A DNA stretch of 63,935 nucleotides, taken from the NCBI GenBank assembly GCA_030528715.1, contig JAUMYJ010000008.1, forward strand, positions 1-63,935, written 5' to 3'. How positions within the stretch are numbered: position 1 is the stretch's first letter; each line of letters begins with the position of its first letter. Origin of the DNA: Bacteroidales bacterium (GTDB taxonomy: Bacteria; Bacteroidota; Bacteroidia; Bacteroidales; Bacteroidaceae). Under the pieces are notes generated by a model. It saw only the letters and a list, made by a program, of their open reading frames with translations. It searched no databases and was not told where the DNA came from. The position numbers and the translations under genes are program-made. Of this stretch, positions 1 through 63,887 are shown in pieces.

Positions 1-47
1 CACAATTGTATCGTGTCGTGGCACAGCTGTACCGAGACTTGGCACAA
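1..47. repeat. 84-bp palindrome array, copy A (cut by window edge)
   Basis: The last two complete 21-bp units (6-26 and 27-47) and the final five bases of a preceding unit are visible; the rest lies outside the window. Each unit is an imperfect palindrome, TTGTRYCA-N5-TGGYACAA, and the array ends in TTGGCACAA like copies B and C. It sits about 125 bp upstream of the predicted gyrA promoter. No gene is seen in bases 48-249 apart from that promoter. Confidence 0.85.
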
Positions 48-7781: not shown

Positions 7782-9251
7782 ATGTCCTTTTTCAAGCCAT
7801 TATATATTGCTGCAATATGCAGCTTTTCTGTCATAACGTCTTTTACTTCGTGTGATGACGACGTTACTAGTATCGGGCAGACCATACTGCCTAAGTATGA
7901 TAATATCACCACTACACAAGCTGTGTACAATGTTAATACAGCTACGCTTTTGCCCGATTCTATTTTAGTCAATAATACTAATGGGTATCTTGGCCGCCTC
8001 ATTGACCCTATTACGCGTGTAAGCACTACTAGTAATTATGTAGCACAATATGCCGTACTTGATGGATTTAGTTTTCCACCACAAGCACTTATGGCGCGTA
8101 ATGATGAGGGCAAAATCGAGGCAGACTCTGTTACCTTAATGCTCAACTTTAAGTCTTATCAAGGTGACTCGCTAGCACCGATGCGCTTGGGATTGTATGA
8201 ACTCTCTATGGATAATCCGTTGAGTGAGGGAACCTACTATTATAGTAATGTCGATTTGTCTAACTATGTAGATACTACCAGCAGCCTCAATCGTGCCATA
8301 AGCTACACGCTACGTGACCTTACACGTCCAGATTCGCTTTGGAACAATGCTAAATATTATAATAGTGTGCGTGTAAAGCTACCTAAAAGCTATGGTACAG
8401 CTATCCTCAATCACTATTATACTAAGCCCAATGACTTTGCTAGTACGTATCGTTTTATCCGAAATGTTGTACCAGGGTTTTACTTTAAAGTGTTAGATGG
8501 CTTAGGTGCAATGATGCACATCGAACATACAGCACTCAACGTTTATTTTACTTATCATACCGAGGCGAAGCCTGACTCTCTGATTGGTGGTATGGCTACT
8601 TTTGCAGGCACACAGGAGGCATTGCAGTTTACACTATCTACCAATGTTGGAGACCTTCAAGCCCAAGCTAACGCGTCAGACTATACACTAATAAAATCGC
8701 CAGGAGCAGCTTTTACAGCCGTAACACTACCTGTGGACTCTGTTTTCTTTGGACATGAAACAGACTCTATTACTGCCGCAGTACTATCATTACCGTGTCT
8801 CGTTGAGCCTCATGTAGCCACTGTTAGCGCACCATCTGCACTCCTATTGATACGTGCAAGAGATTATAAGGACTTTTTTGAGAAACGCCAAATCCCTAAT
8901 GGACATACAGCTTTCCTAACAACGTACAATAGGGACAAAAATGCTTATATTTATACTAATGTGGCCAACTTGATGGCGTCTTTACGTAGTGAATACGTTA
9001 GTATTGGCTTAGCTAAGACAGATACGCCCGAACAGTATGCTGCTAAGCTCGCAGCTTATACAGCCGCTAACCCCGATTGGAATAAGGCCTATCTTGTTCC
9101 TGTAGAAATAAGCTATGGTATTAGTGGAGAAGCTAAAACGAGTAGTCTTTTGAGTGTACGTCATGCCTCATCAGTAAGTTCCGCACGTTTGCTACGTGGT
9201 AATGATAATGGTGCACTAACACTATCGGTAATCTATGATAGTTATAAATAA
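7782..9251 (+). CDS. DUF4270 family lipoprotein
   Basis: 489 residues. The N-terminus is a hydrophobic signal with a lipobox, SFTSC, so the mature protein should be lipidated at Cys24 and carry acidic residues right after it (DDD), as is common for Bacteroidetes surface or outer-membrane lipoproteins. The family DUF4270 is recognised from the opening after the lipobox (SIGQTILPKYDNI) and overall length; its function is unknown. It is the second gene after the GT5-like gene and is followed by a terminator. Confidence 0.8.
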   Translation: MSFFKPLYIAAICSFSVITSFTSCDDDVTSIGQTILPKYDNITTTQAVYNVNTATLLPDSILVNNTNGYLGRLIDPITRVSTTSNYVAQYAVLDGFSFPPQALMARNDEGKIEADSVTLMLNFKSYQGDSLAPMRLGLYELSMDNPLSEGTYYYSNVDLSNYVDTTSSLNRAISYTLRDLTRPDSLWNNAKYYNSVRVKLPKSYGTAILNHYYTKPNDFASTYRFIRNVVPGFYFKVLDGLGAMMHIEHTALNVYFTYHTEAKPDSLIGGMATFAGTQEALQFTLSTNVGDLQAQANASDYTLIKSPGAAFTAVTLPVDSVFFGHETDSITAAVLSLPCLVEPHVATVSAPSALLLIRARDYKDFFEKRQIPNGHTAFLTTYNRDKNAYIYTNVANLMASLRSEYVSIGLAKTDTPEQYAAKLAAYTAANPDWNKAYLVPVEISYGISGEAKTSSLLSVRHASSVSSARLLRGNDNGALTLSVIYDSYK

Positions 9252-9322: not shown

Positions 9323-9386
9323 AGGTATAGAAAAGAGCTCTTCTTTTTTTTCTATTTGGAGGTTGCAGTCTTCGCTCGAATGTTTG

Positions 9387-9442
9387 ATGTCCGAAGACAA
9401 TTGTCCGAAGACACCAGCCATTTGTCTGAGGTCTTCGGATAT
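9387..9442. repeat. Short direct and inverted repeat between convergent genes
   Basis: TGTCCGAAGACA occurs twice with 14-bp spacing (9388-9399 and 9402-9413). A third, inverted copy GTCTTCGGATAT (9431-9442) can pair with ATGTCCGAAGAC (9387-9398) over 12 bp with one wobble. The region lies between the DUF4270 terminator and the HAD gene terminator. I see no gene in 9252-9540. Confidence 0.6.
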
Positions 9443-9511: not shown

Positions 9512-9544
9512 GAAAAAGTAAAGCGTAGGCAACTTCTCGCCTAC
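9512..9544 (-). terminator. Terminator of the nitroreductase-DUF2520-HAD operon
   Basis: On the minus strand GTAGGC, an 8-nt loop and GCCTAC form a hairpin (9525-9544) overlapping the HAD stop codon. It is followed by a T-rich stretch read from 9523 down to 9511. Confidence 0.65.
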
Positions 9545-10059
9545 CAGCCAAAAGCTTTTTCGCATGCCATCCATCGTCCTTGGGCTTTGAGTACTTGTTC
9601 GATAATATCTCGTGCGACACCTTCTCCTCCCTTGTGAGGAGAGATATAGGTACAAATACTTTGTATTTCAGGAGCTGCATCGGTAGGGCAGCAGCTACAC
9701 CCACAACGTTGTAGTACTTGATAGTCGGGTATGTCGTCACCTACGTAGAGTATTTCTTCGTCTTTAAGTCCATATTTAGCTTTCCAATCTTCGTAGTCTT
9801 CGGTTTTTTGGCTACTGGCTAGATATACGTCTTGTACCCCAAGGCTTTCGTAGCGTACGCGTACGGCTTGTGTTTTGCCACCTGTGATGATGGCTAATGG
9901 CATGCCAAGTTTAGCTGCTAGATGTAGTGCATAGCCATCTTTGATATTGGCTGTACGTAAGGGTTCGCCTTCTGCATTGACTGTGATGACGGTGTTGCTT
10001 AACACCCCATCTACGTCAAAAGCTAAGGCCTTAATTTTAGTTAGGTCATAGTTTATCAT
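9541..10059 (-). CDS. KdsC-like HAD-family phosphatase
   Basis: A 172-residue haloacid-dehalogenase-family protein of the small, cap-less KdsC/YrbI class, which forms tetramers and typically removes phosphate from KDO-8-phosphate during LPS synthesis. Motif I is DVDGVLS (Asp15/Asp17), motif II IITGG and motif III YVGDDIPD. The KDG block matches KdsC-type proteins. The CxxxCCP segment near residues 119-124 is unusual. It overlaps the DUF2520 gene start by 4 bp (9541-10059 against 10056), so the two are translationally coupled. KDO phosphatase is the best guess; another small-sugar phosphatase is possible. Confidence 0.82.
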   Translation of the reverse strand: MINYDLTKIKALAFDVDGVLSNTVITVNAEGEPLRTANIKDGYALHLAAKLGMPLAIITGGKTQAVRVRYESLGVQDVYLASSQKTEDYEDWKAKYGLKDEEILYVGDDIPDYQVLQRCGCSCCPTDAAPEIQSICTYISPHKGGEGVARDIIEQVLKAQGRWMACEKAFGW

Positions 10060-20165: not shown

Positions 20166-20249
20166 TTGTGCCATACCTGGGTACATTTGTGTCTGTTCGT
20201 GGTACGTTTGTGTCATGACGCGAAACAATTGTATCGTGACTTGGCACAA
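20166..20249. repeat. 84-bp palindrome array, copy B
   Basis: Four contiguous 21-bp units start at 20166, 20187, 20208 and 20229. The array starts TTGTGCCA and ends TGGCACAA, so its ends are perfect 8-bp inverted repeats. Each unit follows TTGTRYCA-N5-TGGYACAA with some mismatches. It lies between the divergent lon and exporter promoters, 37 bp upstream of the exporter -33 element. Confidence 0.9.
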
Positions 20250-28377: not shown

Positions 28378-28461
28378 TTGTGCCAGGCTGTGGAACATTT
28401 GTACCAAGTCGTTATACAGTTGTACCACGTCAAGGTACAACTGTATCACGACTTGGTACAA
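28378..28461. repeat. 84-bp palindrome array, copy C
   Basis: Units start at 28378, 28399, 28420 and 28441. The third unit, TTGTACCA-CGTCA-AGGTACAA, is a nearly perfect palindrome. The array starts TTGTGCCA and ends TGGTACAA. It lies between two genes read in the same direction, 74 bp upstream of the PepSY-gene -33 element. Confidence 0.9.
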
Positions 28462-28534
28462 AGCGTTAGGTGTAGCTTAACATACGTTTGGGTACTATGA
28501 TGAGTGATGTCGAGGTATGTCTTTTTATATGGTC

Positions 28535-37806: not shown

Positions 37807-37890
37807 GTGTGCCGTGTCGGGATACATTTGTATCACATCTAGATACAGATATTTCACGACATGGCACACATGTATTCTGACATGGCACAA
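37807..37890. repeat. 84-bp palindrome array, copy D
   Basis: Units start at 37807, 37828, 37849 and 37870. Unit 2, TTGTATC-ACATCTA-GATACAG, is close to a perfect palindrome. The array starts GTGTGCC and ends TGGCACAA. It lies between the divergent ABC-F and small-protein promoters, 32 bp upstream of the latter's -33 element. Confidence 0.9.
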
Positions 37891-38319: not shown

Positions 38320-38889
38320 CTAATCTAGAGTATGTGCTGATGGTTCAAGTTCGCTGCTCTCAGGAGTGGTCAAAGACATTTCACCTGTCGGTGTAATGTT
38401 GATAGCTACGCTCTGAAAGGCTTCATCGTCAATGCCATCGGGATAGCCTATCGTGGCAATGAATTTTAGGTTATTTCCTTGATTACCAATACCTACAAGG
38501 TTGATAAGTAGACCATATTGGCGAAACTCCTCACTAAGGTAGGTGGTAAAGTCGCTTTTTTGAAATGTACGATCGAAAATCGTATTGCTGCCTGTACGTA
38601 TGTGTAGACGAATAGTGTTGTCGTAATAGCTTCTGCCTTTGATGTCAATGGGGGGCTCTGTTTCGTTGCTTGTTCGGCTACTTGTCCATACATAGCTTTG
38701 CCCTGATAGCTTAATAGGTAGGACTTTGTTGTTGTGTGTGATGGGCATCATAGCTGTGGGCTGGCTACTCGCTTCTTGAGCTGCTGTGAGGGTCTCTGTT
38801 GTGGCAGGAGTGTCTATCTTATGCTCGGCACCGCAGGCATAGAGGGTGAAAAGAGTAATAACCCCAATGGCGTAAAATGTTGTTTTCAT
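38320..38889 (-). CDS. Hypothetical lipoprotein
   Basis: 189 residues from MKTTFYAIGVITLFTLYACG, a lipoprotein signal with lipobox LYAC. The body has two blocks: SGQSYVWTSSRTSNETEPPIDI with YYDNTIRLHIRTGSN, then LINLVGIGNQGNNLKFIATIGYP; it looks like a beta-sandwich. No family recognised. An upstream in-frame ATG (38919) lies at the predicted -7 element, so the start at 38889 is chosen. Confidence 0.75.
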   Translation of the reverse strand: MKTTFYAIGVITLFTLYACGAEHKIDTPATTETLTAAQEASSQPTAMMPITHNNKVLPIKLSGQSYVWTSSRTSNETEPPIDIKGRSYYDNTIRLHIRTGSNTIFDRTFQKSDFTTYLSEEFRQYGLLINLVGIGNQGNNLKFIATIGYPDGIDDEAFQSVAINITPTGEMSLTTPESSELEPSAHTLD

Positions 38890-38916
38890 GTGGGATAAGA
38901 AATACATTGCTACATG

Positions 38917-38924
38917 CAAAGATA
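38917..38924 (-). promoter_or_regulatory. Predicted -7 element of the lipoprotein gene
   Basis: The minus strand reads TATCTTTG, 27 bp before the chosen ATG; no clear -33 TTG. Confidence 0.45.
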
Positions 38925-49501: not shown

Positions 49502-49585
49502 TTGTGCCATGTCGTGGTACGATTGTTTCCAGTCGTGAGACACATGTGCCATGGCGTGGCACATGTGTGCCGTAACTAGATACAC
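49502..49585. repeat. 84-bp palindrome array, copy E
   Basis: Units start at 49502, 49523, 49544 and 49565. Unit 1 reads TTGTGCCA-TGTCG-TGGTACGA and unit 3 ATGTGCCA-TGGCG-TGGCACAT, both near-perfect palindromes. It lies between the divergent ileS and clpB genes, 232 bp before clpB. The 49140-49816 gap also holds the leader ORF, the ileS promoter and the motifs at 49660-49726. Confidence 0.9.
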
Positions 49586-63845: not shown

Positions 63846-63887
63846 TTGTGTTATGACGAGATACAGATGTTTCTCTTTATGGAACTA
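63846..63887. repeat. 84-bp palindrome array, copy F (decayed)
   Basis: Two adjacent 21-bp units can be recognised: TTGTGTTATGACGAGATACAG-type (63846-63866, matching the half-site ends TTGT and ATACAG) and a weaker one ATGTTTC...GGAACTA (63867-63887). Units three and four are not recognisable in the following sequence. Phase and spacing match the intact arrays, so this is probably an eroded copy. Confidence 0.55.

Follow-up and report, generated by a model that had tools for sequence, protein, structure and literature searches.

The parS, matS and Noc sites are palindromic, scattered over the chromosome and bound by one protein. The division of bacterial chromosomes into supercoil domains of approximately 10 kb is a classical concept; to our knowledge, fixed, sequence-marked boundaries of such domains at the ~10-kb scale have not been established. 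Among dispersed repeats, the available sections of a REP survey in E. coli report no clear clustering or periodicity (PMC12306157), and the portion at hand of a study of REP-associated tyrosine transposases (RAYTs) describes RAYT subclass 2.6 of Bacteroidetes as having atypical secondary structures on its flanks, copies of which occur elsewhere (PMC6006769). The BrickBuilt (BBlt) MITE of Porphyromonas gingivalis consists, according to the accessible text of its description, of 23-nt units in 1 to 22.8 repeats with leader and tail segments and IS5-like terminal repeats; the same text notes that tandem repeats of 22 nt had been described before from strain W83, with no locations given (PMC4596501).

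Here we analyze arrays of four tandem palindromes, with a period of 21 or 22 bp, in a Bacteroidales genome and its relatives. In the open-access literature searched, including the available part of PMC5771137, we found no description of four-unit arrays of this kind; such a description may exist elsewhere.

Results

The window, that is, the whole stretch of 63,935 nt under analysis, is contig C17 of a Bacteroidales MAG (1.64 Mb in 42 contigs, 71% complete). Arrays B (20166–20249, with units at 20166, 20187, 20208 and 20229), C (28378–28461), D (37807–37890) and E (49502–49585) are each exactly 84 bp long and comprise four palindromic 21-bp units in register, just as an initial sequence-only reading of the window had described them. 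That reading was also right that array A is cut at the window edge and that array F is decayed: A (1–47), truncated by the contig start, retains the last five bases of unit 2 together with units 3 and 4, and F (63846–63887), near the contig end, has about two recognizable units. All six of its copies, assigned here to family F1, stand, but its list was incomplete because it missed, within a 20-kb gap, a seventh array of four 21-bp units (9359–9442) that belongs to the sister family F2 (consensus TTGTCYGAAGWCTTCRGACAA). The gaps between successive arrays in the window are 9.4, 10.8, 8.2, 9.4, 11.7 and 14.3 kb. Allowing up to 3 mismatches, the unit pattern has 29 matches on both strands of the window, compared with a mean of 4.07 and a largest value of 17 in 100 dinucleotide-preserving shuffles. 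No Rfam family reached its gathering score at the window arrays.

The neighboring genes are oriented in every way. Array B is flanked by divergent genes for lon (−) and an ABC transporter ATPase (+), and array E by divergent ileS (−) and clpB (+); array C lies between same-strand genes for an outer membrane efflux protein and a PepSY-TM protein, and the F2 array lies between convergent neighbors (7782–9251, + and 9541–10059, −). Array D is located between two minus-strand genes, encoding an ABC-F ATPase and a DUF4738 protein; since the right neighbor (38320–38919, −) is a real gene, the placement between divergent promoters that had been proposed for B, D and E applies to B and E only. To the right of array C, positions 28462–28475 are an imperfect match to a symmetric F1 flank motif with the outward consensus TRCYTTRGGCNTAG.

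Genome-wide, the F1 unit pattern with at most 2 mismatches has 84 forward matches, against 1 for a reversed-pattern control, and the two-unit pattern with at most 3 mismatches has 167, against 0; a sequence model built from 17 copies was used beside these two patterns. Initial scoring yielded 69 clusters: 56 four-slot, two three-slot (C13:14606 and C30:112238), three two-slot (C17:6 and C5:3, cut by contig ends, and the decayed C17:63846) and eight single-unit, one of which belongs to C11:4323, a four-slot F1/F2 mixture; the other seven single-unit matches were left out of the catalog as probable chance. The genome-wide scan suggested by the sequence-only reading thereby gave 62 catalogued F1 loci, with a near-constant unit number: four slots in 57, three in 2, contig-cut in 2, decayed in 1 and five in none. 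The catalog is complete at the two-unit threshold because the catalogued regions contain all 167 two-unit matches of the genome, and it corresponds to one locus per 26 kb (62 in 1.64 Mb). The intergenic placement reported for the window copies extends to the genome, given that called ORFs overlap only 9 of the 62 loci; six of these ORFs are 246–468 bp long, and in the three longer ones the chosen start lies within the array or at most 23 bp away. Two of the 84 assembly contig ends fall inside F1 arrays (window 1–47 and the start of contig C5 of G000), where simple arithmetic, not simulation, gives an expectation of about 0.3; F1 arrays may hinder assembly.

Across 56 F1 arrays, every unit strongly retains the skeleton T2 G3 T4, C7, G10, C12, G15 and A18 C19 A20. 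The weakest skeleton position is T2 of unit 3 (42/56), and T4, A18 and C19 are each conserved in 54–56 of the 56 arrays in every unit; variation is found at positions 5, 6, 8, 9, 13, 14, 16 and 17 and at the inner junctions. The most regular part of the array is its outer ends (TTGTGCC ... GGCACAA), beyond which the flank motif is read outward on both sides, with T at its position 5 in 97 of 111 flanks and a weak echo one further 21-bp step outward. Among 55 copies, mean pairwise identity is 62%, and the maximum is.786, where column shuffling gives a maximum of.769 on average; in the same copies we detected neither a clear family tree nor a clear excess of flanking direct repeats as would mark target-site duplication, the absence of which the sequence-only reading had proposed to check. 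Neutral decay from a master copy would wear all columns alike; the retention of the skeleton at near-shuffled identity thus argues that these are sites under selection and not recent copies. Selection on spacing, as claimed for the window copies, fits the skeleton kept in each unit together with the fixed two-turn period.

As palindromes, the F1 arrays are imperfect (scores of 18–26 of 36), and the stems show no compensation, within-unit Watson-Crick matches numbering 1311 against 1329 ± 15. Because the stems are uncompensated, we take the units to be duplex sites that protein dimers would bind, and the earlier suggestion that dimers face one side of the DNA would fit the two-turn period and these uncompensated stems. 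A plain duplex-site model does not, however, predict two further features: a correlation between positions of the same unit that is not of the complementary kind (mutual information z 5.3), and an excess of complementarity across junctions 1|2 and 3|4 (1417 vs 1374.5 ± 14.7 expected). Whole-element and 2x3 foldings show no excess complementarity.

A first sequence-free scan was too permissive, picking up periods of 24 and 27 from coding DNA, and stricter scans took its place. The detector scores four tandem palindromes by palindromicity plus half the neighbor identity and ranks 55 of the 56 F1 arrays above the shuffled maximum. When applied to 160 kb of the window's genome picked for the absence of F1, it found five arrays, every one with period 21 or 22. 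Family F2 has a 21-bp period and a 4x21 layout, whereas F3 has a 22-bp period, the consensus CTGTATAACGNNCGTTATACAG and mostly a 4x22 layout. Nine four-slot F2 arrays, obtained by four-slot scoring, were counted along with two weak or partial ones; F3 comprises six four-unit arrays, one with a one-base slip (C13:47244), one three-unit array (C13:58969) and a few partial matches. Three arrays mix F1 and F2 units, in the orders 1221 (C11:4323), 1121 (C30:41219) and 1211 (C37:22703), with four slots in all three, and C9:184229 reads ?222. Two or more unit types are interchangeable within the four slots. F2 flanks resemble F1 flanks, 11 of 18 exceeding the 95th percentile for random sites; the resemblance is weaker for F3 flanks (6 of 14).

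The arrays are spaced more evenly than random placement would give. Genome-wide, none of the 34 within-contig gaps between F1 loci is shorter than 6 kb (minimum 6254 bp), compared with 11.5 expected, and 0 of 5000 uniform simulations were as extreme. Six contigs (C8, C13, C15, C17, C18 and C20; 387 kb), five of them chosen among F1 carriers and C15 with its regularity seen before the choice, were scanned entire for F1, F2 and F3 and contain 34 arrays with 28 gaps of 5.8–32.1 kb (minimum 5.77, mean 10.7 kb), the weak matches at C13:108 and two units near C18:24131 being excluded. The coefficient of variation (CV) of these gaps is.47, against 1.00 for random intergenic bases in the same number per contig (largest minimum gap 2.4 kb) and.87 when whole intergenic gaps are drawn (largest minimum 3.4 kb), with 0 of 20,000 in either null; with F1 alone it is.67, so that adding F2 and F3 evens the spacing. 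F1 is denser on these contigs (25 in 387 kb) than genome-wide, so the 10.7-kb mean is probably tighter than the genome average, and the mean spacing of all families across the genome probably lies closer to 15 kb than to 10; the evenness tests are independent of mean spacing. One close pair departs from this spacing: on C9, which is not among the six contigs, ~1 kb separates an F3 array at 145829 from an F1 array at 146884.

The 119 gene ends adjoining F1 arrays comprise 61 5′ and 58 3′ ends, and the 57 classified F1 contexts are tandem in 36 cases, divergent in 13 and convergent in 8; on the six contigs, 11 of 32 arrays of all families lie between convergent genes. The arrays are indifferent to promoters, and their distribution is even irrespective of gene orientation, as for chromosome-organization sites.

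The layout recurs in other members of the order. In 1.09 Mb of other Bacteroidales (197 loci not selected for arrays, some of which came via F1-pattern or RAYT searches), the detector gave 19 matches scoring at least 42, against 0 in shuffled DNA, 16 of them with period 21 or 22; in 400 kb of six same-genus genomes, it gave 17 matches scoring at least 38.5, against 0.33, 15 of them with these periods. These shuffles preserve base composition only; of the 11 periods tested, the matches concentrate at 21 and 22, which serves as an internal control. The same-genus genomes with such arrays are G080, G033, G027 and G008; with the same detector, 100 kb of G004, 60 kb of G081 and 100 kb of G168, a genome from another family of the order, gave none. 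G168 has five loci of exactly 4x21 with an F1-like skeleton, and a sixth with two units, and its arrays carry symmetric flanks. A further 140 kb from four genomes yielded five period 21–22 matches, none resembling a four-unit array: three belong to long tandem repeats in G378, and the remaining two fall in low-complexity G229 DNA. In G378, contigs C20 and C54 (L331 and L332) have long arrays of 21-bp palindromes, e.g., TTGTACCGAGTAATGGTACTG, made up of roughly twelve units and different from the four-unit arrays. Long tandem repeats with units of ~79 and 414 bp were also seen in G017 and G015 (L162, 744–1404 and L166, 1–1187), at loci sampled for Y1 transposase matches; the two genomes have 18–19 forward F1 unit-pattern matches and no F1-model match.

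The largest same-genus sample is a 460-kb block of G080, picked because its first stretches contained arrays. It has 39 arrays, 30 counted as four-unit and nine as five-unit, in at least six sequence families by eye; five of the nine five-unit arrays belong to one family, and one of the nine (197821) has four units by eye. Array midpoints are intergenic in 32 of 39 cases, the intergenic share of the block being 18.8%. The minimum gap of 2.8 kb exceeds the largest minimum of the null, 2.0 (0 of 20,000), and the gap CV is.80 vs 1.04 (630 of 20,000), a weaker spacing than in the window's genome.

In Parabacteroides sp. 52, a 22-bp unit of its own has 142 matches, against 0 in four other named genomes. 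Twenty loci of this 4x22 family (L446–L465), selected for a perfect unit, have four units in 19 cases, and one counts three; the outward flank AGAAT is present at 14 of the 20 loci on the left and at 11 on the right. Here the copies are related by descent, with a maximum identity of.95 vs.88 (19 copies), and the stems again lack compensation (595 vs 587 ± 7); junction complementarity is below expectation (599 vs 612 ± 6), opposite to F1. Many copies show, by eye, CC and then a T-run beyond AGAAT, possibly an additional outer motif or else a terminator.

The F1 sequence itself is patchy in its occurrence. In 393 genomes drawn evenly from the order, only G168 (11) and G378 (12), besides the window genome, have more than three two-unit matches to the F1 skeleton, and pattern scans of genome-contig and viral-contig collections gave no match. 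A five-unit array lies upstream of clpB in G008 and a four-unit array upstream of clpB in the window genome; since a single positional match may be due to chance, we draw no inference from it. The closest genus members are 65–66% identical to the window genome in the N-terminal part of ClpB (200 residues). For the IleS protein, the three best named relatives, with 69–71% identity, are Bacteroidales records. Another locus from the clpB scan, L341, contains a different, long inverted repeat. Arrays are found just upstream of ileS at 5 of 80 ileS loci (L197, L203, L206, L211 and L213), from which we likewise infer nothing because that gap makes up much of the intergenic DNA sampled there.

Discussion

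Taken with some reserve, and at somewhat less than even confidence, our preferred reading is that the arrays are four-dimer binding sites serving as chromosome landmarks, with the dimer binding, the cooperativity and the chromosome role all inferred; the anatomy, fixed count, spacing, uncompensated stems, mixed arrays and taxonomic spread are observed directly. Each array would be a double-stranded protein-binding element with four palindromic sites two helical turns apart. Because the two-turn pitch puts the palindrome centers on one face of the DNA, four dimers bound side by side on that face could touch, and the fixed count suggests a complex of defined size. Symmetric flanks border the array. 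Such complexes, placed between genes every ~10–15 kb in any gene orientation, might act as anchors, loop bases or supercoil-domain boundaries. A chromosome-level role is suggested by the even spacing, the indifference to gene direction and the grid common to several families, and among the roles that the sequence-only reading had listed, chromosome organization is the one that the even spacing favors. Related lineages would use the four-slot design with other letters, presumably since binding proteins and sites change together.

The same reading had also proposed a small mobile element, and the evidence divides on this point. The arrays could be non-autonomous elements of ~100–110 bp, the palindromes and flanks of which are recognized by a transposase or recombinase, with target immunity keeping copies apart and a different, often lost, enzyme for each family. 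Several families per genome and patchy, species-specific sequences are typical of mobile repeats too; the symmetric flanks of the arrays in three genomes (the window's, G168 and Parabacteroides sp. 52), the minimum spacing and the related copies of Parabacteroides sp. 52 point the same way, and a copying mechanism that avoids its own neighborhood could generate even spacing. Against such elements stand the lack of target-site duplication and of a family tree among the 55 F1 copies, in which every unit is constrained at 62% mean identity, and the mixed F1/F2 arrays, which stay four-slot and are more easily explained by slot-by-slot replacement than by insertion. We regard a mobile nature as unlikely, albeit a serious contender. 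The related Parabacteroides copies indicate that arrays can spread by copying or conversion, and a mobile-element origin followed by retention for use is plausible. A more specific version, in which RAYTs acting on single-strand hairpins produce the arrays as REP-type repeats, draws on the extragenic, species-specific palindromes and on G023, where a RAYT-like ORF (L080, G023:C162, 584–1546) runs at its 3′ end into a 4x22 array (1501–1587). We take this ORF to be RAYT-like from its PDHMHGI motif and from a G007 relative that overlaps a match to Y1_Tnp; its 236-residue core has no Pfam match. Y1_Tnp matches are present in each of G008, G020, G023, G024 and G022, relatives with F1-model matches, against a base rate of 28 of 58 genomes. 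The window genome (71% complete), on the other hand, has no match to PF01797 or to the G023 protein, and among 45 loci with a RAYT or RAYT-like gene, a tandem repeat of period 21 or 22 is present in the sampled DNA of only 6 (L260 and L161 with 4–5 copies, four others with 2–3). The uncompensated stems of F1 and Parabacteroides sp. 52 make hairpin use less likely, and REPs, in the available portion of their description, occur as single units, dimers or variable clusters, not as a fixed four (PMC3733652). This origin thus appears improbable.

The two remaining readings concern gene expression. Palindromes of the dimer type spaced two turns apart are a classic form of cooperative operator, and 13 of the 57 classified arrays lie between divergent genes, so that the arrays might be operators of a global transcription regulator, akin to the multi-gene operator once suggested for the window copies. 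The nearly equal numbers of adjoining 5′ and 3′ ends, the prevalence of tandem over divergent contexts and the convergent contexts of 8 of 57 F1 loci and 11 of 32 arrays on the six contigs speak against this, as does the even spacing, which a regulon does not predict; we consider operators quite improbable. RNA-level elements, such as tandem hairpins acting as bidirectional terminators or transcript stabilizers, would agree with the short stem possible in each unit and with the intergenic position in all gene contexts. The stem positions are, however, uncompensated, the F1 palindromes are imperfect and the window arrays match no Rfam family at gathering score; we rank a hairpin or RNA function below the landmark explanation on account of the stems and the Rfam result, and its probability is very small.

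At its broadest, the landmark reading predicts a chromosome grid of the Bacteroidales: four-slot arrays every 10–15 kb or so, each binding four dimers, with conserved count and pitch and with specificities, at least two per genome, rewritten in each lineage. In this general form it is possible but doubtful. If the arrays are supercoil-domain boundaries, the question becomes testable, as the sites are base-exact, evenly placed and available in a named record, Parabacteroides sp. 52. If they are selfish instead, mobile repeats that avoid one another and keep a fixed four-unit structure would be unusual too. Either way, the arrays provide a computable, sequence-independent signature for finding more.

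With REP, BIME and REPIN elements and their RAYTs, the arrays share an extragenic, palindromic and dispersed nature and species-specific sequences. They differ in the fixed four units, the two-turn period, the several unit families per frame, the even spacing, the uncompensated stems and the failure to find a RAYT in the 71%-complete window genome. Moreover, REPs have a guide tetranucleotide (GTAG or CGTC) at the hairpin foot, whereas the F1 unit ends in TTGT/ACAA and could accommodate CGTC only at its center. BrickBuilt, in the accessible text of its description, likewise consists of intergenic tandem short repeats across a Bacteroidales genome (PMC4596501); the arrays differ in having 21- or 22-bp units in fours (sometimes fives), with four slots at 57 of 62 F1 loci. 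F1 has the symmetric flank TRCYTTRGGCNTAG, which may or may not correspond to the terminal inverted repeats of a MITE; target-site duplications, another MITE trait, were not clearly seen in 55 copies. An identity with BrickBuilt was set aside in view of its 23-nt unit and variable repeat number. The archaeal SegB sites are, as far as the available part of their description goes, palindromic, distributed chromosome-wide and bound by one protein, as is putatively the case for the arrays; they differ in being motifs of 13 bp that fall mainly within genes and have an uneven distribution (PMC12284271).

Thus, REP/RAYT repeats, BrickBuilt and SegB-type sites each share some features with the arrays, which do not appear to match any of them fully, and we know of no fixed four-unit array among SegB, parS, matS or Noc sites.
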